DNA from: a virus
Reading direction: 5' to 3' (one strand)
Length of the DNA: 48,908 nucleotides
IMG/VR virus record: IMGVR_UViG_3300042292_000490
Location: 1-48,908 of that record
The notes under the pieces were generated by a model. That model was not told the DNA's origin, made no database searches, and saw nothing but the letters and a program-made list of their open reading frames with translations. The first letter of the stretch is position 1; each line of letters starts with the position of its first letter. Below are positions 2,232-46,924 of the stretch, in pieces. The translations under genes and the position numbers were made by a program.

Positions 2232-2935
2232 TGCGATTTTCTTACTTGTAAATGATTTTTATCAATGTGTAATATTTTTGTAGGTCCAAATGAAGACCAA
2301 CTTTCGGGCTGTGCATATGTTGGGGGCAGTACTACCGTTGGTGTATTTAAAATCATATATTTGTTCATATAGCTTTCATCATGCCACAATGCTATATAAT
2401 TTTTTCTAAGATCTTCTTCAGATTGATCTCTTAAATATTTACACATATTAATAAATTCTTTGCTTTCTCCACCCTGAAAACAATTTTGATAATAATGATT
2501 CCCTTTGCCAATATCTACTCCTGAGTTTGCAGCCACATTTCTATCATATGGAAATTTTGAATTATTATCAAATGATGACATTCCTGGATGACTGACACAA
2601 ACACGATGTCCTAAAATTTCTTCACCAACCATATCTTTCATTATCATATCACAATCAATATGATATACATAATCATAATTTTGTAAAACTTCACAATTAC
2701 TATAATAATGATATCTTAGTAAAGAAATTAAAGGAAAGGGTACATGTGTTATATGTACTCCAATTGGATTTACACGACCAAAGTGATTTTTAAATAATTC
2801 AGGTTTATCTGTAAATACAAACAGGTTAACTTGATCTTGAGTATTTGAAAATGCATGTTTATTCATGCTCTCCAAAAGATTTTCTGCATATTTAATATAC
2901 TTATTAGTGGCTATTGTTACAAAAGCTATTTTCAT
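2228..2935 (-). CDS. Family 6 glycosyltransferase (ABO/alpha-1,3-Gal(NAc) transferase type)
   Basis: The protein matches the catalytic domain of GT6 enzymes, which add Gal or GalNAc in alpha-1,3 linkage. Diagnostic features are VFTD near residue 40, a DxD metal site DCD at 94-96, the HYYQNCFQGG segment and WHDESYMNKY at 184-193, which corresponds to the GT6 signature WHDES.LNKY. The 235-aa protein has no membrane anchor, unlike vertebrate GT6. Many bacterial GT6 have NxN in place of DxD; this one keeps DxD, as reported for a cyanophage homologue. It overlaps the upstream GT4 gene by about 30 bp and the epimerase downstream by 4 bp, indicating one transcript. Confidence 0.88.
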   Translation of the reverse strand: MKIAFVTIATNKYIKYAENLLESMNKHAFSNTQDQVNLFVFTDKPELFKNHFGRVNPIGVHITHVPFPLISLLRYHYYSNCEVLQNYDYVYHIDCDMIMKDMVGEEILGHRVCVSHPGMSSFDNNSKFPYDRNVAANSGVDIGKGNHYYQNCFQGGESKEFINMCKYLRDQSEEDLRKNYIALWHDESYMNKYMILNTPTVVLPPTYAQPESWSSFGPTKILHIDKNHLQVRKSQ

Positions 2936-3872
2936 TTATAAATTCTTTCACAATTTTTATATAATCATCACAGACAACATCCCAATCAAAATAATCTAAA
3001 GCATATTTTCGAATATCATCTCTATATTTATTGTTATCTTCAATTGCAGTTCCTATTGTTTCATTTATTGAATCATTAATAGGACCATCTATTACATGTA
3101 TAAATGGAAGCGTAGTATCAAGATTTGCTGCTGCAGTTGGAGAAACAACTAAACTTAATCCGGCAGATAAAGCCTCTGGCACCACTAGAGGTGCAGCCTC
3201 ACCATCACTCAATAAAATTAAACATTTATAATTAGTCATATTTTGATACAAATCTGGTTTAGCCCAAACACCAGCATATTTGCATGTTTCATTTTCTTTA
3301 AAAGCATAGTCAATTACTGGACCAACAAAATCTATATGATTTTTGTTTCTACATGCATTTGCTAAATCTGCCTGTCTTTTACGTGGCTCCACTTTTCCTA
3401 AACAAAGACCATGTTTACTAGGAGTTTTTATAAAATTAAATTCAGAACTTCTTGCCCCATTACGCAAAGATCTTAAAAAACCTTTATATCCAGAACCTTT
3501 AAATAAATTGGAAATTTCTGGTGCTAAAGATATAATACCTTTGCTATTTAATACACCATTATATATATTTTTCCATCCTGGATAATCTGGATAATGTTCT
3601 TTTATATATCCATAGTGAGTTGTGGTGCAAAATGGTTTATTAATTAATTTAGTTAAAACTTGTGCATGATCATCATAATGAAGATGAATAAAATCATAAT
3701 CAACTTCATTTACATAATTTGCAACACTTTGTAAATCTGGACTATTGATTATTTCTACATCATGTCCCTTTTTTAAAAGGTATTCATATTGATCCCATAT
3801 TAAACTTTCAACTGCACCCCAATTATTTGGGGGTATTGGCATTATACCTGGTCCTATTAAACATATTTTCAC
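2904..3872 (-). CDS. GT4-type (GT-B fold) glycosyltransferase
   Basis: The N-terminus (MKICLIGPG, then WGAVESLIWDQYEYLLKKGHD) is the classic opening of family 4 glycosyltransferases, and the C-terminal half has the donor-site pattern with E..APLVVPEALSAG around residues 225-238. At 322 aa it is a little short for GT4. The start is GTG at 3872, preceded by AGGAG with 6-nt spacing, which fixes the start despite the absence of ATG. Its 3' end runs about 30 bp into the GT6 gene. The sugar transferred is unknown. Confidence 0.82.
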   Translation of the reverse strand: MKICLIGPGIMPIPPNNWGAVESLIWDQYEYLLKKGHDVEIINSPDLQSVANYVNEVDYDFIHLHYDDHAQVLTKLINKPFCTTTHYGYIKEHYPDYPGWKNIYNGVLNSKGIISLAPEISNLFKGSGYKGFLRSLRNGARSSEFNFIKTPSKHGLCLGKVEPRKRQADLANACRNKNHIDFVGPVIDYAFKENETCKYAGVWAKPDLYQNMTNYKCLILLSDGEAAPLVVPEALSAGLSLVVSPTAAANLDTTLPFIHVIDGPINDSINETIGTAIEDNNKYRDDIRKYALDYFDWDVVCDDYIKIVKEFINENSFCNNSH

Positions 3873-10424: not shown

Positions 10425-11213
10425 TCATAGTATAATCCACTCTTTACAATAAATGTCAGACCAATTTTTTGGAGCACTTGGTGCAGACCCAAACCACTTT
10501 GAAGGTGCGATAGTTTTCTTAGAATCACTCAACCAAGATCCCCACCAACTAAAAGAACTGTTAGCAATAATATGATAATTGCATAAAGTCATCAAACACA
10601 TATCAACATACTTATCATTACTTTCAGTAAATACAACTTTACGATTTAACGATTTAAAAAATTCAGTTGCCTCTGGAATATCATCACTAAAGACATAAAT
10701 TAAAATATCATCAGGCAATAACTTCAGTGCTTCTGCATAATATTCTAAAGAACAAATTGGATGATTGTCTTGCAACTGAACATAATCACCTAATCTTAGA
10801 TGTATCGATATAGTTGGTAACCTTGTTAACGAACGAATATCTACTGCTTGCTTATAAATTCTATCATTAAAAGCAAATTCTTTTAATAATTGTTCTCTAT
10901 AATCTACAAAATATTTTTCACTTTGAAAATAACCAGTAATATCCGTATTATCTTGGATTCCAAAAATACCAGCATTATATGTAAACTGACGTTCCTGAGC
11001 TTTATTTAAAGCAGCATAATCACTACTATCAGCTGCAGATAGATTTGAAAAACATTCAGGTAAACAAAAATTATAGTATTCATTATTAGTTTTTAACTTA
11101 TATGGAACACCAAATTGATATTTTCTAGTTTTAGCAATAGAATATAATGTAGCATATTGAAACATCTGATTTCCAAATCTACCATTTGTTCCAATTCTAT
11201 TATATGTAATCAT
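10425..11213 (-). CDS. Family 11 glycosyltransferase (alpha-1,2-fucosyltransferase-like)
   Basis: The N-terminus GRFGNQMFQY (11-20) and HLRLGDY (138-144) are the hallmark motifs of GT11 alpha-1,2-fucosyltransferases; HxRxGD binds GDP-fucose. A third motif, SSFSWWGSWLS near residue 220, also matches. The 262-aa length is close to bacterial members (about 280-300 aa). The start overlaps the upstream stop by 4 bp. Making an H-type Fuc-alpha-1,2-Gal linkage is the known activity of the family. No GDP-fucose synthesis genes are in the window, so the donor would come from elsewhere. Confidence 0.88.
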   Translation of the reverse strand: MITYNRIGTNGRFGNQMFQYATLYSIAKTRKYQFGVPYKLKTNNEYYNFCLPECFSNLSAADSSDYAALNKAQERQFTYNAGIFGIQDNTDITGYFQSEKYFVDYREQLLKEFAFNDRIYKQAVDIRSLTRLPTISIHLRLGDYVQLQDNHPICSLEYYAEALKLLPDDILIYVFSDDIPEATEFFKSLNRKVVFTESNDKYVDMCLMTLCNYHIIANSSFSWWGSWLSDSKKTIAPSKWFGSAPSAPKNWSDIYCKEWIIL

Positions 11214-34975: not shown

Positions 34976-35413
34976 ATGGCGTACAGAACAATTTTTAATC
35001 CTAAAAATCCAAGAAAATACGCAGGAGATGTATCCAAAATTGTCTGTAGATCTATGTGGGAAAGAAATGTATGTGTATTCTGTGATGAACACTCAAGTAT
35101 ATTAAAATGGTCATCTGAAGAAATTGCCATTCCATATATGAGTCCTATTGATAAAAAGATGCACAATTACTATCCAGATTTTTTAATACAGTTTCAGAAC
35201 ACAAATGGTTTACAAAATTGGATGGTTGAAGTAAAACCCAAAAAACAAACCATGATAAAGGAAAATGCTTCTAAAAAAGAGAAGTTTACTTGGATCGTAA
35301 ATAATTGTAAATGGAACGCAGCTAAGTCGTATTGTGATAAGAATAATATGGTTTTTAAAATAATAACAGAAAAAGAACTTTTTTCAAATGGCAATACCAC
35401 CAAATCAAACTAA
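34976..35413 (+). CDS. 4: gp4-like head completion protein
   Basis: The 145-aa protein resembles T4 gp4 (head completion, 150 aa), a TnsA-like nuclease-fold protein: CRSMWERNVCVFCDE, WSSEEIAIPYMSPIDKKMHN, YYPDFLIQF and WMVEVKPKKQT follow the family's D...E-x-K order. It starts the rightward late run and its end overlaps the next gene by 26 bp. Confidence 0.85.
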   Translation: MAYRTIFNPKNPRKYAGDVSKIVCRSMWERNVCVFCDEHSSILKWSSEEIAIPYMSPIDKKMHNYYPDFLIQFQNTNGLQNWMVEVKPKKQTMIKENASKKEKFTWIVNNCKWNAAKSYCDKNNMVFKIITEKELFSNGNTTKSN

Positions 35414-35975
35414 TTCAATCACAGCAATCAAAGACTTTTTTGATAGACACAAAGGACTACAGAGACCTAATAGATTTTCTATGTCCTTTAATGGACTGCC
35501 ACCAGCATTAAGTGGATTAGTACCAGCCAATGACTTTCAACCAATCGGAGTAATGATTGGTGCAAGAGCTATTGATTCTGTAGCAGACAATCTTGCAGGA
35601 TATGGTTTGGGTAGAAGCGTTCCTAGATCTCAAAAATTTCCTCAAGGAATTATGTTAACTTTTGCTGTAACCAATGATCATTTTATTACAGATTTTTATG
35701 ATACATGGTTTAATTTAATTTACTCGGGAGGAAGACAAAGAGGTACATACAAAACACCTTTTCAACTTTCATACTATGATGATATAATTGCAAAAACACA
35801 AATGAAAATTAATATACTTGATCCTAACGGTAATATTAATAGAATATATACATTTTTTGAAATATATCCTATTGAATGTTTACCAATTGAATTGAGTATG
35901 ATGAAGACTAATGATTATATGACATATCAAGTGTTGATGATGTTCAGAGATTTCACTTTTAAACCAGGTACATAA
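35388..35975 (+). CDS. 54: gp54-like / tube-fold baseplate-tube junction protein
   Basis: The 195-aa protein has a tube-fold architecture: RPNRFSMSFNGLP at the start, FAVTNDHFITDFYDTWFNLI in the middle and a YTFFEIYPIECLPIELS motif near the end, as in T4 gp54/gp19 family members. T4 gp54 is 320 aa and initiates tube polymerisation. Given three other tube-fold genes in the window, this could instead be a further tube ring protein. Confidence 0.6.
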   Translation: MAIPPNQTNSITAIKDFFDRHKGLQRPNRFSMSFNGLPPALSGLVPANDFQPIGVMIGARAIDSVADNLAGYGLGRSVPRSQKFPQGIMLTFAVTNDHFITDFYDTWFNLIYSGGRQRGTYKTPFQLSYYDDIIAKTQMKINILDPNGNINRIYTFFEIYPIECLPIELSMMKTNDYMTYQVLMMFRDFTFKPGT

Positions 35976-35976
35976 T

Positions 35977-36639
35977 ATGGATATACTTAATTCGTTGGAA
36001 AGTCTTTTACCAAAATATCAGACTACTCTTCCTTTCTCGAAACAAACTGTTTCGTTTGTTCCATTCAGAGTAAAGGATGCAAAAAATATCTCTATTATCT
36101 TACAAGAAGAAAATAGAAAATTGGCATTAACTAGTTTAGTTGATATTTTAAAAACTAATGTTAAAGATATTAATGTTTTAGAATTGTGTATGGCAGATGC
36201 TGAATTTCTTTTTTTACAAATAAGATCAAAGAGTGTAGATGAACAATTAAATTTGATTCATAATAAAGAACGAATTCAAGTTTCTATTTCTGAGATATAT
36301 GGAAAAAATAGTATATCATCGCAAACTATAGAGTTAACTAATAATGTTAATTTAGTATTAGAAACACCAACGATAAAAGATTTATTAAAATTAAATACAC
36401 TGAATAAAGAAGATGTAATTCAAGCATGTATTAAAAAAGTTATATTTAATGGTGAGATCTTTCATGTTAGTAAATATGTTACAGAAGAAATTAAATTAAT
36501 TTTAGATAATTTACCTATGACCGTTCTTCCTAAATTTGAAGAATTTTTAAAGACCCAGCCTGATTTGTTTTTAATTATCAAAACGGAAGATGGTGATAAG
36601 GAGGTAAATGGATTTTTAACTTTTTTTACTTATCGGTAA
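35977..36639 (+). CDS. 26: gp26-like baseplate hub assembly chaperone, zero-frame product
   Basis: The 220-aa protein has the T4 gp26 layout (208 aa in T4): an N-terminal LPFSKQTVSFVPFRVKDAKN strand, INVLELCMADAEFLFLQIRS and a helical C-terminal half with LNTLNKEDVIQACIKK. Near its 3' end the codons ACT TTT TTT form a T TTT TTT slippery heptamer at 36621-36627, followed by a stem-loop. Most ribosomes should end at the TAA at 36637; a fraction should shift to the -1 frame and make a 284-aa fusion. Confidence 0.78.
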   Translation: MDILNSLESLLPKYQTTLPFSKQTVSFVPFRVKDAKNISIILQEENRKLALTSLVDILKTNVKDINVLELCMADAEFLFLQIRSKSVDEQLNLIHNKERIQVSISEIYGKNSISSQTIELTNNVNLVLETPTIKDLLKLNTLNKEDVIQACIKKVIFNGEIFHVSKYVTEEIKLILDNLPMTVLPKFEEFLKTQPDLFLIIKTEDGDKEVNGFLTFFTYR

Positions 36640-36680
36640 AGTTTTTTGATTTAAAAGATTACTATGTTACTAACTTTACC
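36621..36680 (+). promoter_or_regulatory. Programmed -1 ribosomal frameshift signal
   Basis: The heptamer T TTT TTT (36621-36627) is in phase with the gp26 frame. A 7-nt spacer follows, then a perfect 9-bp stem: GGTAAAGTT (36635-36643) with AACTTTACC (36672-36680) and a 28-nt loop. Slippage by -1 joins gp26 residue 217 to a 67-codon open frame ending at 36830. All three parts have the textbook geometry. Confidence 0.8.
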
Positions 36681-36830
36681 CTGATAAATAATTTTAATTG
36701 GAATCTGTTTGATTTAGAAAATATGGTATGGTGGGAACGCGAAGTTTATGTTAAATTGTTAGTAGATTATCAAGATCAAAAGAACCAAGAAAATATGTCA
36801 CACACACCAAACATGCAAGGATTTAATTAA
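36627..36830 (+). CDS. 51: -1 frame extension of gp26 (gp51-position domain), made by frameshift
   Basis: This 67-codon frame encodes YLSVKFFDLKDYYVTNFTLI followed by a Trp-rich helix (MVWWEREVYVKLLVDYQ) and a Gln/Asn-rich end. It has no ATG, GTG or TTG before the ATG at codon 33, so expression as a C-terminal extension of gp26 is most likely. Its stop overlaps the next ATG as TAATG. T4 encodes the hub-assembly protein gp51 next to gp26; the symbol reflects position, not demonstrated similarity. The arrangement recalls the G/GT tail chaperones of lambda. Confidence 0.68.
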   Translation, partial: YLSVKFFDLKDYYVTNFTLINNFNWNLFDLENMVWWEREVYVKLLVDYQDQKNQENMSHTPNMQGFN

Positions 36831-37300
36831 TGGTAGACGATAATAATATATCATTGGATGTAACCGCAGAACAACAGCTATTTGCCCCATCTATTAAACC
36901 TTCAGATATTCGATCAGCGCAACTTGATAGTAGTATTCCCGAAGATATGGATTTACCTGAAAGTGTTGTGTTTAAAACAATTGTTGATCCACCGTTACTG
37001 GATTCAATCGTTTATCAAGCAACTAAAGTAGATGTATCTGAAAAAACAAGTGCAGAAGTCGCTGACGTTGGAATAAAATTACAAGTTAAATTTGATCCAG
37101 AAGCATCCTATAAAAAATTAGAAGAAAATGTAGATGGTATAAGAGATAGTGTAACAAGTTTGGCAGATAATGCACAGAATAAATGGATACCAAATCCAAG
37201 TCCAGCTTCAAAGTTTGAAGAACGACCAACACTAGAACAAACTAATTTAGTATTTGATGCCAGAGCAGAACGTTTTGCTCAATATCCAACATGGGCATAA
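36830..37300 (+). CDS. Unknown protein coupled to gp26/gp51
   Basis: The 156-aa acidic protein (DDNNISLDVTAEQQLFAPSI; later VKFDPEASYKKLEENVDGIR) starts inside the TAATG overlap with the frameshift product, so it is translationally coupled. A central helical segment is flanked by Pro/Ser-rich sequence; no family is recognised. In lambda-type phages the gene after the chaperone pair is the tape measure, but this protein is too short for that. It ends at a bidirectional terminator. Confidence 0.6.
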   Translation: MVDDNNISLDVTAEQQLFAPSIKPSDIRSAQLDSSIPEDMDLPESVVFKTIVDPPLLDSIVYQATKVDVSEKTSAEVADVGIKLQVKFDPEASYKKLEENVDGIRDSVTSLADNAQNKWIPNPSPASKFEERPTLEQTNLVFDARAERFAQYPTWA

Positions 37301-37325
37301 AAAAAGCCCCTTGCGGGGCTTTTTT
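37300..37325. terminator. Bidirectional intrinsic terminator between gp26-operon and gp32
   Basis: A near-perfect 11-bp stem (37300-37310 with 37315-37325, loop TTGC) has an A-run on one side and a T-run on the other, so it should terminate in both directions. It overlaps both flanking stop codons. Confidence 0.92.
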
Positions 37326-38182
37326 CAATCATTCTCCATTTCGGAGAAGTACTTTAGAGGATCCTTTTCCTCAATGTCTTCACGGATTACATTATCCGTG
37401 ACATCATCTTCAATACTCTTTGAGTCGGTAAACTGAGCACGAATATCGTCTCCAGTTGCCTTCTTGAGTCTAGCCTTGAGTTCATCATAACTCTTGAACT
37501 GACTCTTGTCAGTAAACTCCTTGAGAGCATACTGCTTCTTCCAAAGTTCTTCTAACTTCTTATCATCTCCACCAAGAAGAGGAGTAGGAGTAGCAAACTC
37601 AGAACGATCATAATTCACGTATCCACCAACATTGCGAATCTTGATCTTAAAGTCTGCACCAGTCCAAAAGTTGAATGGATCGATTGCAGTCTCATCCTTA
37701 AATTCTGGATGAGCAAGTGCTTGGATCTTTTGGAAAATCTTGGTACCATACTGATAAAGAAAAACCTTTCCCTTATTCTCGGGATTTGCAGGATCTTCAA
37801 CAACAAGAATGTTAGAGATGTAAGTCAACTTACGCTTACGATTACGTGCAATATTCTTGTCATCCTCAATTCCACTATTCCAGAGTTCCGTGTTTGCTTC
37901 ACAAACAGGGCACTTCTCTCCAAGAGTAGTTGGGCAGTTTTCAAACAACCAACCACCCTTGCCCTTGAAGGCATGACTGTAAACTGAAACAAAAGGAGTA
38001 TCTTCTCCTGCAATCTCAGGAAGGAATCGAATTACTGCATAACCGTTTCCAGCCTTGTCAATACCTGGCTTCCAAATACGGTCATCCTTGTAACTCTCCT
38101 TTGACGTGAGCTTATCCATGCGCTCGGTTAGTGATGCGACTGAGTTCTTACTCTTCTTCTTGAAATCTGAAAAATTTGCCAT
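37325..38182 (-). CDS. 32: gp32-like single-stranded DNA-binding protein
   Basis: The 285-aa protein is the T4-type SSB (T4 gp32 301 aa), coating single-stranded DNA in replication and recombination. The basic N-terminal domain KKKSKNSVASLTERMDKL mediates cooperativity. The zinc subdomain is present, with candidate ligands His70, Cys83, Cys91 and Cys94 (T4: His64, Cys77, Cys87, Cys90). The C-terminus is acidic (DIEEKDPLKYFSEMEND). A sigma70-like promoter and a hairpin in the leader precede it, suggesting autogenous control as in T4. Confidence 0.94.
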   Translation of the reverse strand: MANFSDFKKKSKNSVASLTERMDKLTSKESYKDDRIWKPGIDKAGNGYAVIRFLPEIAGEDTPFVSVYSHAFKGKGGWLFENCPTTLGEKCPVCEANTELWNSGIEDDKNIARNRKRKLTYISNILVVEDPANPENKGKVFLYQYGTKIFQKIQALAHPEFKDETAIDPFNFWTGADFKIKIRNVGGYVNYDRSEFATPTPLLGGDDKKLEELWKKQYALKEFTDKSQFKSYDELKARLKKATGDDIRAQFTDSKSIEDDVTDNVIREDIEEKDPLKYFSEMEND

Positions 38183-38570: not shown

Positions 38571-39557
38571 ATGTCATTATCACCATATTTTGGAGAAACG
38601 TATGTTGTTATCGAAACAAGTGGAGTAACCTTTGCTGTTTCGGCTGATCCTGTATTAGTCAGCGGTATAACTAATTACACCCAAATTTATAAAATGGCAT
38701 ATGGTCCTACTGGATCACTTACAGTAGTAGATACTGCTACTCCACTTCCTGTCAGCGTAGCTGGTGGTATGACTGCTAATATTTCCGGATTCTGTGGAAC
38801 AATCAATATTCAGGGTGTTGGATCAGGAACTCCAGTTCCAGTATCTGGTACTGTTAATGTTATGGGTCTTACTGCATCACCTGTATACGTACAGACCACA
38901 ACTGGTTGCAGAGTAGAAGTTACTGGTGGACGATATTTAAATAAACTTACAGACAATGTTTCTGTATTTGGTCCAAGTGGAAATACTTGGATTTATTCTA
39001 ATATGGTCAATGCCAGTGGTGTTGCTATCGGAACTACTTCAAATCCAATGCAAGTAAGTTTTAGCGGTGTTACAATCACTGCAAATATTGCATCAACAAT
39101 TGGTGTAACCAATGACTCTCCTGGTAATGGATTACGCATTCAAGGAATGACTGGTGGACTTAGTGTTGCAGTAACAGTGGGAAATACAGTTGGTATTAAT
39201 GATACAGCTATTCTTGCTGGTATGACCAATGTATATGGTCAACTTCTTACACTCAATGCTCAAATCTTGAGTATTGCTGGTAGTGTTCCGTCTAGTATTA
39301 AATCTAGTAGAACAGCTCCAACTGCCGTTGTATCACAAATGGATCCAACTGGGTTTACATGCTCATATGGTATAAATCTTAAAGCTGCAGCAACTAATAC
39401 AAATTTAGTTTATTTTGCAGGTAATACTGGAGTATCTTCAACAACATCATACGGATTAGATCCAGGTGAAGAAATATTTGTTAAAGTAAATAATACTAAT
39501 AAAATTTGGACTGTTACCGGAAGTGGTACACAAGCACTATTTTATAATGCATCGTGA
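38571..39557 (+). CDS. Beta-rich virion structural protein (fibre/decoration-like)
   Basis: The 328-aa protein is low in charged residues and rich in Val, Thr, Gly and Ser, with repeated strand motifs of the type PVPVSGTVNV, PLPVSVAGG and NPMQVSFSGV spaced through residues 55-170. The C-terminal 80 residues (SSRTAPTAVVSQM, GLDPGEEIFVKVNNTNKIWT) look like a compact beta sandwich. Such proteins are usually phage tail-fibre or head-decoration components. It is late-expressed and precedes another structural gene. Exact role unknown. Confidence 0.6.
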   Translation: MSLSPYFGETYVVIETSGVTFAVSADPVLVSGITNYTQIYKMAYGPTGSLTVVDTATPLPVSVAGGMTANISGFCGTINIQGVGSGTPVPVSGTVNVMGLTASPVYVQTTTGCRVEVTGGRYLNKLTDNVSVFGPSGNTWIYSNMVNASGVAIGTTSNPMQVSFSGVTITANIASTIGVTNDSPGNGLRIQGMTGGLSVAVTVGNTVGINDTAILAGMTNVYGQLLTLNAQILSIAGSVPSSIKSSRTAPTAVVSQMDPTGFTCSYGINLKAAATNTNLVYFAGNTGVSSTTSYGLDPGEEIFVKVNNTNKIWTVTGSGTQALFYNAS

Positions 39558-39564
39558 ATAAAAA

Positions 39565-40848
39565 ATGGCAGAAACAGAATCAGCATATACATTAAATAAA
39601 GTTAGAACTTTAAAAAATTATGGTTTGTACGTTACTGGATTAACCGTAGACCCTATTTTTACAAAAGGAATTTTAAATTCCAAACCAAATATTTTAATAA
39701 GTGGTTCCACATGTACAATTGATTATTCGCATGTATATGATGTGTCTGATTCATTATATTTAAAAAGAACTTTTGGTGGATTTTCTGGTGCAGGAGAAAC
39801 ATTCTCTATATCAGCATCACAATATTTTGATGAATATAACAATGTTACTACAACGTTAAGTGGAACTTGTAGGTTATCAACTACTATTAATGATAATCAT
39901 ATTATTATTGCTACTATTGTTTCCGGTCTTACTGCAACAACTGATTACAATTATTATGGAAAAGATAATTTTGTAGACACCCCACAATATACTTTTACAT
40001 CTACTGGTGGAACTATTGGATATTTTTTAGTAAACTCTCTTCCAAATCTTTCTAAAACAACATTCAATAGTATGGGTATTCTTGGATCAGCATATGGTTT
40101 TGAAGAATACATTGAAATATCGGGTGGTACATTAAACAACGCTGAACGTATTCTAATCAGTGGAACTATACAACTAAAAGACTCTACTGAACTATTATAT
40201 TTTGCATCAGGTGGAACTTTTCAAGATTTTTCAACTACTAATACTTCAGTTGATTTATATATGCGTGGATACCCATCCTTGTTGACTTATCCACAACAGT
40301 CTAATGTAACTGGAATTTATACAATATCTAACGCTTTAACTAAAGATTTAATAAATTGTTATGAAAACCAAACTTTAAACCAATCGCAATTAAGAACTTC
40401 AAAGATAGCAGTTGGATACTTATCTAGTTTTGTAAACTGCAAATCGTGTTATGATTTAATATATGGAAGTGGTATATCAACTCCATTTAGTATAATATCT
40501 CCATCATTTAATAATTTAATTTATATTACAATAAGTTCACCAACATCAACTACAAATATTGCTGCATTAAATATAAATGTTACAATGTCAGTATCATCAG
40601 TAACATTAACACAACCAAGTGGTAATACAACTTTAAAAATTGATTTAAGTCATCCGTCTATATTAGGATATTCATTAGAAACATATATTGATGCCGCTAG
40701 AGAAATTCCATTGGGATCTGCTTATAAAAGTTATGGTGTTCCTGGATATAATGGCGCATATGCCATCATAGATTCATATAGTACATCAACACCAATATAT
40801 TGTGTAATGAGTGGACTGTCTACAATATACTTTAGTATAAAAACATAA
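39565..40848 (+). CDS. Beta-rich virion structural protein, unknown role
   Basis: The 427-aa protein follows 7 nt after the previous gene. It is rich in Ser, Thr, Tyr, Ile and Asn with repeated short strands (IISPSFNNLIYITISSPTST, NVTMSVSSVTLTQPSGN), typical of fibre or receptor-binding-region proteins. No enzyme motif is visible. It ends at a hairpin shared with the convergent gene. Confidence 0.55.
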   Translation: MAETESAYTLNKVRTLKNYGLYVTGLTVDPIFTKGILNSKPNILISGSTCTIDYSHVYDVSDSLYLKRTFGGFSGAGETFSISASQYFDEYNNVTTTLSGTCRLSTTINDNHIIIATIVSGLTATTDYNYYGKDNFVDTPQYTFTSTGGTIGYFLVNSLPNLSKTTFNSMGILGSAYGFEEYIEISGGTLNNAERILISGTIQLKDSTELLYFASGGTFQDFSTTNTSVDLYMRGYPSLLTYPQQSNVTGIYTISNALTKDLINCYENQTLNQSQLRTSKIAVGYLSSFVNCKSCYDLIYGSGISTPFSIISPSFNNLIYITISSPTSTTNIAALNINVTMSVSSVTLTQPSGNTTLKIDLSHPSILGYSLETYIDAAREIPLGSAYKSYGVPGYNGAYAIIDSYSTSTPIYCVMSGLSTIYFSIKT

Positions 40849-43222: not shown

Positions 43223-46200
43223 TTAGTATGGACCTTGTGCTTTTATTATAATATGATTTCTACCATATGTCAACCCACTTCTTGCTGTATTTGGTTCATA
43301 TGTCGTATCCCATGGGCACAATTCTTCATCTCTGTTTATTTGATCAAATACATCATCAAACATTATATTATATTTTTCAAATCTAATATGATAATTTGGA
43401 TCTAGATCACTGACAGCTTTCAGTCTATCTATTGTAGTAGATAGTGAATTAATTGGTACATTTGCTTGCACACAATCGCCTACTGACCATGCTACATCGC
43501 ATCCGTTAGCAGTTGTGCTTCCTGTGATTCCATCTTTGGCACCACATCCCCATTCAAATTTTCCCATAATATCGGGTGGAATTTTATAACCATCTACTGA
43601 ACGTTGGTGGCATAAATATTTTTTCCAATTAATCATCATATTTCTAGGAAAACCAAATCCAATACCACTTCCCGCACCTCCACAAAATTGACATGATCCA
43701 TCTTCATTAAAACATCCAGTTGGTGGATCTGGGGCAGGACATGAACATCTTGCAGCACATCCTAAATTGCCGAGACCAGTATACGCATCCACTTGTCCAA
43801 ATGCCGTAAAATAAAATCTTTCAGAGTCCAATCCAAATCTATGTGGTATAGTGTTATTATCTAAACAAGTAGGTTCATATACTCCCTGTGGAATTTCTGG
43901 AAAACAAGTATAATTAAAATCTGCAGCACCATATCCATTTATTCTTGATAGATTTGTATTACACCCATAACTTGGAAACAAAAATGGTCCAATATTTGCT
44001 GCATTGGGATTATCTTTATTACAAGGACATATTGCAAATCCACCTTCTCCTGCACAAAAACCACCATTAAATACATCACTACATGGAGGAAAAGATCCAT
44101 CCCTACATGGTTGTCCTGGTTCTGGTATTTCTGGGTCTGGTTCTTCAGTAGTATTGGATGCACCACATGGACAATGTATGATACAATTACCTACTTTAGC
44201 TATCGATGGCCATTTATCTACATATATTCTTGCATTTTGAAAAATATCTCTGGGTTTAGAAAATTCATTACCACATATATTTCCAGAAATACATCTATAT
44301 TCTTCATATTGATGAACATGTGTACCAAATACCTCACTTCCATCTTCATACTTAAAGTTTAATTCATTTTCTATGGCAGATGATGATTGAGATATAGGCA
44401 TATAAGAACTTCTATATCTCAATATACCAACATAACCTTTATGTCCAGCAGCACGTGGAATATCAGCAATCGCATCATCAAATCGTGCTCCGTGTTCTTT
44501 AAATATTGCATATACACTGTCTGGTGGATCAATCATTTTAATATCACCAGCAGGAATATATAAATTAGGAGAACATCCTGCACCCAATAAAGTCCAACAT
44601 TGCGTTATACATGTTTGTATCGGTTCACTGGGCCAAGTACCGTATTTGGGAAATTCAATAGGACAGTCGGTTGGACATGCAACACCCGACCCATTGACAA
44701 TCATCAATTGTCCACCCTTTGGATTTATATTAGTAAGGGGGTGAGTGCGTGAGCCAAATTTTTCTGCACAATTTGTAAATGCTTGATCATTTGGTCCAGA
44801 ACAATTAGAACATCCGGTTTCATCAGTTTCAAGTATTGCTCGAATAATAATTGGACCACGTTCAGAAAAAGATACACGTCCTCCAACATTATCAGAATTT
44901 GGTCCATCTATATTAGATTCCCAACAAGAAGCAAATGGTGATTCTTCAAACTCACCAAATATAACATGATCATCACAAGCATCTTCAATACTTACAGTTT
45001 TACCATCTTCATTAATTGTAATTCCGGATGGACAATCACAACCAAGACTAGAAAACTGAACTTCTTCTACTTTTTGTTTTAAACTAATTCTAAATTTAGT
45101 TTCTTGTGGAGTACCTGCATTAAAAATCTTTACTCTATTACATACTGTCACGTCCCAATCTCTAAAAACTCTCCACACTTTTCCAGGAGCAATATCACTA
45201 TGATCTAAAGTAAATAATACTCTTAATGCACTAGTTGGTGTTTGATGAATCCATATACCATCTGCTTCTCTTCCGTTAGACCATTGATATCCAGCAAGTT
45301 CTAATGCACCAATTTCATCAGGTGCTTCATAATCCATACCAAAACACCATTCACCAAACCCTAAACCCTGTGCGCCTGCATCTGGGCTACAAAAAGGATT
45401 TTTTCCACCTTCCTCTACTCCAAAATCATATTGAGTTGGAACAATTACATTTAAACTTACTTTTTTACTTGATAAACCTAATGTATATCCTTGTGGGCCA
45501 CATGCTCCACATGCTCCACAAAATCCAGATGGTGCACATGTATAACCTGTTCCATCACAACCACAAATAGTTGTACCAGTTAATCCGGCTGGACCTTCAT
45601 ATAAATCCCATTCAGGTGTGGTGTATCTATTGAAAGGATTCATCCAACCAAAGAAATGCATATTAGCTGTACTTCCATCGAAGGGCAGACTTCCTACAAA
45701 ATTAGGATTTGAATTGGAATATGCTTTACAACCTTCTGGAACGTCTTCCCATCCAAATGGAGTTCCATTGTCTGGATCTAATTGAGTACATATTTGATCA
45801 GGATCTAAAAAAGTACCACTGCAACAAGCATCAACATCTTGACCAAATGTACCAGAACATTTAGTTTGCACTAAGGGGCATTGTCTTATCCAGGGAGTGT
45901 CAGAATATGACTCTGGGTCTGCAAGAGCTTCTTCAACTTGTTGTTTGGTAAATTTAGATCCCTCAAAAACTGCATTACCAGACCAACATGCTGCAGAATT
46001 TTGATCTATATCCATATTTTTTTTAAATCTATATGGCCAGGGTCCACGAGGCATACGAGCAAAATCACGTGCGCATATAGCTGGAATTCCATCATCATTA
46101 AATGTATCAAAAAATACTTCACAATTTGATAATTCTCTCCAAGGATAATTTTCATTTACATTAAATGAATGACAAGCATCTGGATGTGGTCTTACATTTC

Positions 46201-46924
46201 TAGCAGGACCAGTACGTTTAATATCAATAACTGTTGAATATGTATTTCCTTGACTATTATATTTTTCTATTTTTAATTCAAATGTAAAATTAAAAAAGTG
46301 ATTATCATTATAATATGTTGGTTGACAACATGCATCCAAACCAGTATATCCAGATGTGCCACAACACCCAACAGAACCACAACAACCACAAGAACCACTC
46401 AATCCAGATGGACCACAACATCCAGTAGGTCCTGCTGGTCCTGGACCAGATGTACCAGAACAACCTGGAGTTCCAGAAAAAAGATCAACATTTGTCATAT
46501 TGATTCCATTGAACCAACATGGAGAAATATCACCATAGAATGCAGCATCACCCCATCCATATGATGGTATATCTAATAAATTGGAAGGAGTTCTAAAAGA
46601 ACTTGTAAGACCTGCAAGGGGATCTTCTGGATCTATTATTTTTATTCGAGCAACATCTGGTTGTCTACCTATTTCACAACAACTCTGTGAGTCTTGTCCC
46701 CATGGAGGACAATCGTCACAATTAATTAAATTTAAACCAGTCATTGGGTGACCAACACTTGGTAACTCTGTAGTAATAGTACCGGTAGATGCCCAATTTG
46801 GTTGAGTTGGTTGTTCTAATATGCCTTCATTTGCAAAAGGATCTTGTGGATCATATGTATTTCGATACCAATGATCTCTATCGCACCAACTACATTTATT
46901 ACAACAGCACGCTTTTTTTGGCAT
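43223..46924 (-). CDS. Giant cysteine-rich virion-like protein with collagen-like tracts
   Basis: This 1233-aa protein is the largest in the window. It contains about 75 cysteines (6 percent), many as CC or CxC, starting with ACCCNKCSWC at the N-terminus. Residues 151-195 form a Gly-x-y run (GTPGCSGTSGPGPAGPTGCC and onward), and a second Gly/Cys tract (FCGACGACGPQG) follows near 470. Between them are beta-rich segments with Asp/Pro/Gly loops. A TATAAATA late box and AAGGG SD indicate late expression, so it is probably a virion protein. No known family is recognised. Confidence 0.7.
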   Translation of the reverse strand: MPKKACCCNKCSWCDRDHWYRNTYDPQDPFANEGILEQPTQPNWASTGTITTELPSVGHPMTGLNLINCDDCPPWGQDSQSCCEIGRQPDVARIKIIDPEDPLAGLTSSFRTPSNLLDIPSYGWGDAAFYGDISPCWFNGINMTNVDLFSGTPGCSGTSGPGPAGPTGCCGPSGLSGSCGCCGSVGCCGTSGYTGLDACCQPTYYNDNHFFNFTFELKIEKYNSQGNTYSTVIDIKRTGPARNVRPHPDACHSFNVNENYPWRELSNCEVFFDTFNDDGIPAICARDFARMPRGPWPYRFKKNMDIDQNSAACWSGNAVFEGSKFTKQQVEEALADPESYSDTPWIRQCPLVQTKCSGTFGQDVDACCSGTFLDPDQICTQLDPDNGTPFGWEDVPEGCKAYSNSNPNFVGSLPFDGSTANMHFFGWMNPFNRYTTPEWDLYEGPAGLTGTTICGCDGTGYTCAPSGFCGACGACGPQGYTLGLSSKKVSLNVIVPTQYDFGVEEGGKNPFCSPDAGAQGLGFGEWCFGMDYEAPDEIGALELAGYQWSNGREADGIWIHQTPTSALRVLFTLDHSDIAPGKVWRVFRDWDVTVCNRVKIFNAGTPQETKFRISLKQKVEEVQFSSLGCDCPSGITINEDGKTVSIEDACDDHVIFGEFEESPFASCWESNIDGPNSDNVGGRVSFSERGPIIIRAILETDETGCSNCSGPNDQAFTNCAEKFGSRTHPLTNINPKGGQLMIVNGSGVACPTDCPIEFPKYGTWPSEPIQTCITQCWTLLGAGCSPNLYIPAGDIKMIDPPDSVYAIFKEHGARFDDAIADIPRAAGHKGYVGILRYRSSYMPISQSSSAIENELNFKYEDGSEVFGTHVHQYEEYRCISGNICGNEFSKPRDIFQNARIYVDKWPSIAKVGNCIIHCPCGASNTTEEPDPEIPEPGQPCRDGSFPPCSDVFNGGFCAGEGGFAICPCNKDNPNAANIGPFLFPSYGCNTNLSRINGYGAADFNYTCFPEIPQGVYEPTCLDNNTIPHRFGLDSERFYFTAFGQVDAYTGLGNLGCAARCSCPAPDPPTGCFNEDGSCQFCGGAGSGIGFGFPRNMMINWKKYLCHQRSVDGYKIPPDIMGKFEWGCGAKDGITGSTTANGCDVAWSVGDCVQANVPINSLSTTIDRLKAVSDLDPNYHIRFEKYNIMFDDVFDQINRDEELCPWDTTYEPNTARSGLTYGRNHIIIKAQGPY

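Follow-up and report, generated by a model that had tools for sequence, protein, structure and literature searches.

The gp26 locus of an uncultured virus with T4-like genes very probably encodes two tail-assembly chaperones, a short form of 220 amino acids (aa) and a long form of 284 aa, by means of a −1 frameshift near the 3' end of gp26. The locus lies in IMG/VR virus record IMGVR_UViG_3300042292_000490, the whole analysed stretch of which (48,908 bases, 33% GC) is here called the window; T4-like genes in the window are those for portal, major head protein, sheath, terminase and single-strand DNA binding protein. An initial annotation, made from the letters alone, had proposed a programmed −1 frameshift fusing gp26 to a domain in the position of gp51, and comparative evidence strongly supported this fusion. 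We read the locus as encoding short and long T4-like chaperones because of the heptamer at the proposed shift site, the constancy of a Tyr-Leu-Ser (YLS) peptide immediately after it, the stop codons that flank it in phage Melnitz and the domain make-up of T4 gp51. The features at the junction are as follows.

35977..36639, + strand: gp26, the predicted short tail-assembly chaperone (TAC-N); open reading frame (ORF) of 220 aa, stop TAA at 36637-36639
36621..36627, + strand: slippery heptamer T_TTT_TTT, in phase with gp26 for a tandem −1 slip
36600..36830, + strand: −1 reading frame, opening after TAA 36597-36599 and closing at TAA 36828-36830
36627-36827, + strand: gp51 C-domain of the predicted long form, 67 aa after the shift, matching phrog_634

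In the mechanism that we propose, most ribosomes would stop at the gp26 stop codon and yield the 220-aa short form. A minority would slip by −1 on T TTT TTT, where both Phe tRNAs could re-pair with UUU, and would continue in the −1 frame; with the 67 residues of the gp51 domain appended, their product would be the long form of 284 residues. A Shine-Dalgarno-like AAGGAGG upstream and a hairpin downstream would probably raise the slip rate. The two forms would jointly serve tail or hub assembly as non-virion chaperones, in the way that the tape measure of lambda is served by gpG/gpGT. We infer that ribosomes slip here, how often they do and what the stimulators contribute.

The heptamer and the frame beyond it

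The N-domain belongs to the gp26 family and the C-domain to the gp51 family. The gp26 frame matched PF12322 (T4_baseplate, E 1.6e-21) and also phrog_150 (baseplate hub, E 5.3e-21), and the −1 frame matched phrog_634 (baseplate hub assembly catalyst, E 1.7e-14). The AlphaFold2 model of gp26 was confident (predicted local distance difference test, pLDDT, 89), and the viral models closest to the predicted fold were gp26/gp51 hub chaperones; no solved structure in the PDB resembled gp26 by sequence or fold (best fold E 0.18, to an unrelated structure).

At its 3' end gp26 reads ACT TTT TTT ACT TAT CGG TAA, placing T TTT TTT at 36621-36627 exactly in the position and phase initially annotated. The −1 frame is likewise open for 67 codons as described there, from TAC 36627 to TAA 36828-36830, which overlaps the next ATG at 36830, and it holds no ATG, GTG or TTG ahead of codon 33 (ATG). 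The long form (TAC-NC) is therefore predicted at 284 aa (217 + 67). A heptamer with such an open −1 frame is more than chance. Long −1 extensions alone were common (19/60 ORFs of at least 100 aa extended for at least 60 codons), and no other ORF of 80 aa or longer, on either strand, combined a T/A heptamer 40 nucleotides (nt) or less from its 3' end with a −1 frame that stayed open for 40 codons or more.

A blastn search of the region against phage records gave no match, and relatives were found by protein search; wider searches gave 63 and 80 IMG/VR loci, plus named phages. The in-phase heptamer was present in 172/172 junction-spanning loci (171 counted by script and L129 by eye; L014 ends before the junction), so the alignment of gp26 homologues bore out the annotated site. 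Some loci are overlapping extracts of one contig, and the 124 unique alleles are thus the better measure of independence: these comprised 78 TTTTTTC, 44 TTTTTTT and 2 TTTTTTA. They fell into class A (the window's lineage, 33 alleles), class K (Kyanoviridae-like, 83) and class B (8). At least six phage groups carried the heptamer, with representatives in the window's lineage, marine and freshwater Kyanoviridae, the KVP40-like Vibrio phage V09 (Straboviridae), Sinorhizobium phiM12, Agrobacterium OLIVR5 and Stenotrophomonas DLP6. The preceding codon was AGT, TCT, ACT, GCT, AAT, CGT or GAT, the residue varying and the final T remaining constant. Among 235 gp26 columns in an alignment of 122 alleles, heptamer columns ranked 1st and 4th for synonymous conservation; conservation of the in-phase heptamer therefore exceeded coding need. 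In 13 close relatives (91-100% protein identity), the sequence from the heptamer into the 5' arm of the downstream stem was unchanged.

The bases that follow point to translation in the −1 frame. In class A, the 9 bases 3' of the heptamer occurred in six versions that always encoded YLS in the −1 frame, and TYR, TCR, TFR, IYR or IFR in the gp26 frame. Pairwise −1-frame codon differences there were 351 synonymous and 0 non-synonymous. It follows that the −1 frame is translated directly after the heptamer, within the gp26 gene, so initiation further downstream would not explain the conservation of YLS. Past the gp26 stop, 58% of changes fell at −1-frame third positions. These comparisons establish the presence and conservation of the elements as well as joint coding in the −1 frame.

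In the cultured phage Melnitz (L080), a −1-frame TAG abuts the 5' side of the heptamer and a gp26-frame TAA abuts its 3' side; a −1 shift is therefore possible only within the heptamer. One member of the window's lineage (L043) also has a −1-frame TAG directly before the heptamer. The two products would differ in predicted peptides, EVNGFLTFFYLSVK for the fused form of the window virus vs EVNGFLTFFTYR for the unshifted form; the predicted tryptic peptides of P-SSM2 are ENEVVLEGLQSFFR for the fused form and ENEVVLEGLQSFFV for the end of the unshifted form.

T4 combines the same domains on one chain. Over residues 1-201, T4 gp51 belongs to the gp26 family (PF12322, E 3.9e-52), and at its C-terminus it matched that of gp51 (phrog_634, E 1.2e-23); a profile of the −1-frame domain aligned with T4 gp51 198-244 (E 6.4e-5, probability 64%). 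T4 genes 26 and 51 are separate, as the initial annotation stated, and divergently oriented, and gp51 is more than the downstream domain alone that it had been taken for. As T4 gp51 consists of a gp26-like domain plus the gp51 C-domain, T4 encodes short and long forms as two genes.

Sequences flanking the heptamer

36598..36604, + strand: Shine-Dalgarno-like AAGGAGG, 16 nt 5' of the heptamer; missed by the initial annotation
36635..36643, + strand: 5' arm of the downstream hairpin, GGTAAAGTT, invariant in the 33 class A alleles
36672..36680, + strand: 3' arm of the downstream hairpin, AACTTTACC, pairing perfectly with GGTAAAGTT

Of the 33 class A alleles, 29 kept AAGGAGG. Within the motif, Glu was encoded by GAG in 33/33 class A and 8/8 class B alleles, and GAG usage in gp26 genes is 26%. 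In the Kyanoviridae, GGAGG stood at 10 nt spacing in 53/83. These patterns suggest that AAGGAGG is a likely stimulator of the −1 shift.

Downstream, the annotated 7-nt spacer (36628-36634) and perfect 9-bp stem (36635-36643 with 36672-36680) were confirmed, and the stem lies within the 5-9 nt from the heptamer that is usual for a structure at a frameshift site. Folding downstream of the heptamer was marked in class A and the Kyanoviridae-like set (mean fold z −3.7 and −2.5, respectively) but not in class B, which had no stable hairpin (mean z −0.1). The Kyanoviridae-like set had an 11-bp stem that was 88% paired; in 7 sequences, G-C replaced U-A at one of its pairs.

The class A hairpin appears to have exchanged one arm. 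The 3' arm was weakened in 6/25 distinct class A sequences, and the same six carried ACTTTACC a short way upstream of it, which pairs with the constant 5' arm and was carried by 0/19 other sequences (Fisher 5.6e-6, a statistic that ignores relatedness). The best tree needs four changes for this partner switch, and its supported branches are compatible with one origin.

Start codons and alternative explanations

36608..36619, + strand: ATG GAT TTT TAA, a 3-codon frame behind the Shine-Dalgarno-like sequence, which forms a perfect Shine-Dalgarno before it

Positions are counted from the heptamer (h). From the upstream stop to h+60, no class A allele (0/33) had an ATG in the −1 frame, and 27/33 had no ATG, GTG or TTG in that frame before h+60. 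Class K had a −1-frame ATG in 70/83 alleles, as did class B in 7/8, mostly at h+15. In the conserved peptide FFRI.L/M.H this position is occupied by Leu or Met; the ATG could accordingly serve as a coding triplet, as a start or in both roles, and the Kyanoviridae have it within the hairpin as well. In GenBank records gp51 begins at the h+15 ATG or at one further on, or has no annotation. The gene is missing in S-CAM4 (L079) and annotated from an internal ATG in syn9 (L090), Melnitz (L080), HTVC008M (L082), Mosig (L083) and OLIVR5 (L088); the records of these six phages consequently miss the fusion and cut the domain short. If the frameshift reading is right, many deposited genomes mis-annotate gp51 as separate, truncated or omitted.

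If gp51 were a gene in its own right, read from a separate start codon and coupled to gp26 in translation, the T-run would be mere Phe codons. Such coupling would fit the many Kyanoviridae and class B relatives with an ATG at h+15 beside the gp26 stop, and the GenBank gp51 genes that begin there or further in. We consider it extremely improbable: the window and all class A alleles lack the required ATG, most of them lack any of the three start codons, class A conserves the −1-frame peptide that lies between the heptamer and the gp26 stop, ahead of the ATG position, the heptamer is kept even where the ATG is present, and T4 gp51 has its gp26-like domain on the same chain. A non-canonical AUU start at 36612 behind AAGGAGG was rejected, its codon not being kept in other class A members (L033 and L041 among them) and L043 having a −1-frame stop immediately before the heptamer. 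The ATG at 36608 is absent from L007 and L008 (AACGG there) and from most class A members, and with such poor conservation it is not the gp51 start. With one T fewer, however, the frame opened by this ATG and its perfect Shine-Dalgarno would enter gp51, and a base error or one-base indel in the T-run could thus have hidden a normal overlapping gene. That explanation was refuted and keeps next to no probability, given that the same T-runs recur in contigs from different metagenomes (several identical over 1400 bases), that L007 and L008 lack the ATG, and that even very distant phages share the heptamer.

Slippage during transcription of the T7 run would yield the same fusion among mixed products, and a run of seven T, though a short tract, could permit it. 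In most relatives the run is T6C, which is shorter and yet suits tandem tRNA slippage, and the Shine-Dalgarno-like and hairpin elements fit ribosomal shifting; slippage by the polymerase is in our view very improbable. A further alternative, unlikely though less remote, is that relatives whose heptamer is followed by an ATG make three products (short form, fused long form and free gp51 domain) and that the window's lineage lost the third. The distribution of the ATG near h+15 among classes K, B and A, with the heptamer constant throughout, would accord with this, whereas the Leu/Met alignment of that position and its place within the Kyanoviridae hairpin allow it to be plain coding sequence.

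Several points weigh against our preferred reading of a −1 frameshift yielding short and long chaperones. Relatives with an ATG near h+15 could also make a separate gp51. The hairpin is not universal, class B being without a stable one; the partner switch may have arisen independently only a few times, the tree backbone being weak; and the class A stem showed no compensatory double changes. Lastly, no tape-measure gene was recognised among the scanned ORFs of the window, so that gene is either elsewhere or unrecognisable.

For the window's lineage, we favour, with modest confidence, the fuller view that the gp51 domain is made only as a frameshift fusion, that a two-sided stimulator (AAGGAGG plus a hairpin with a fixed 5' arm and a moved 3' partner) drives the shift, and that a T4-like series follows. 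That series would run from obligate frameshift fusion, through frameshifting with a possible free gp51, to the two genes of T4. Our literature search did not find the AAGGAGG, the lack of a separate gp51 start or the partner-switching hairpin of this lineage reported.

Neighbouring genes and known systems

The tail tube gene (35388-35975, phrog_45) lies upstream of gp26. The gene 3' of the gp51 frame (36830-37300) encodes only 156 aa and has no clear family; the gene in the same position is 142 aa in L056 and about 200 aa in L076, and in Pelagibacter and other relatives a small protein comes here, ahead of the tape measure. In the window the 156-aa gene is followed by a terminator and then by the single-strand DNA binding gene on the opposite strand: a strong terminator-like inverted repeat, AAAAAAAGCCCCTTGCGGGGCTTTTTT (37299-37326), separates the gp26/gp51 transcript from that convergent gene. 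Two neighbouring plus-strand genes at 38571-40848 (328 and 427 aa) had no family matches; the 328-aa gene occupies the same place in the distant relatives L056 and L076, as does the 427-aa gene where visible (L056). On the minus strand, 43223-46924 encodes a 1233-aa protein with collagen-like glycine-rich stretches that matched tail fibre families only at residues ~145-240. Glycosyltransferase-like genes lie 5' of the structural block (2904-3872 and 10425-11213).

Vladimirov, Gautam and Davidson (Virology 2022, 566:9-15) are said to have found frameshifting conserved in several T4-like groups, with T4 using genes 26 and 51. Papers that cite their work attribute to it, for T4-like phages, TAC-N genes with frameshift signals of the poly-T type (PMC12846349) and, in some of these phages, one short and one long copy in place of frameshifting (PMC10885494). 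The arrangement in the window is therefore already known in kind, at least as those citing papers attribute it, and the tail-assembly chaperones so described share with our locus the gp26 and gp51 families and the short and long forms, which here are predicted. The link between the T4 hub chaperones and the frameshift chaperone system that the initial annotation proposed can thus be found in earlier work. What our comparison would contribute is strong support, at the level of single bases, that T4-like tail chaperones are made by frameshifting, that of the cultured phage Melnitz among them.

T4 gp26 and gp51, which are listed as hub assembly chaperones (PMC3004832), represent the same two families as the window locus; gene 51 is a zero-frame fusion, for which frameshifting is unneeded. 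The frameshift reading, if true, favours seeing in T4 gp26 and gp51 one chaperone in a short and a long form, and not two unrelated hub factors. A chaperone function for the window's proteins would follow by analogy with these T4 proteins and with lambda-type chaperones. The lambda slippery heptamer is G GGA AAG. In contrast, the window's is of the form T TTT TTY, and no tape measure was recognised directly downstream. The window locus is like lambda gpG/gpGT (Xu, Hendrix and Duda 2004) in adjoining the tail tube gene. The window N-domain had no sequence or structure match among solved tail assembly chaperones; as no solved structure matches gp26, common descent with lambda gpG stays unsupported here. 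With dnaX the window shares a Shine-Dalgarno-like sequence upstream and a hairpin downstream of a homopolymeric heptamer. The spacing from Shine-Dalgarno to heptamer is about 10 nt in dnaX, whereas it is 16 nt in the window and 10 nt in the Kyanoviridae relatives.
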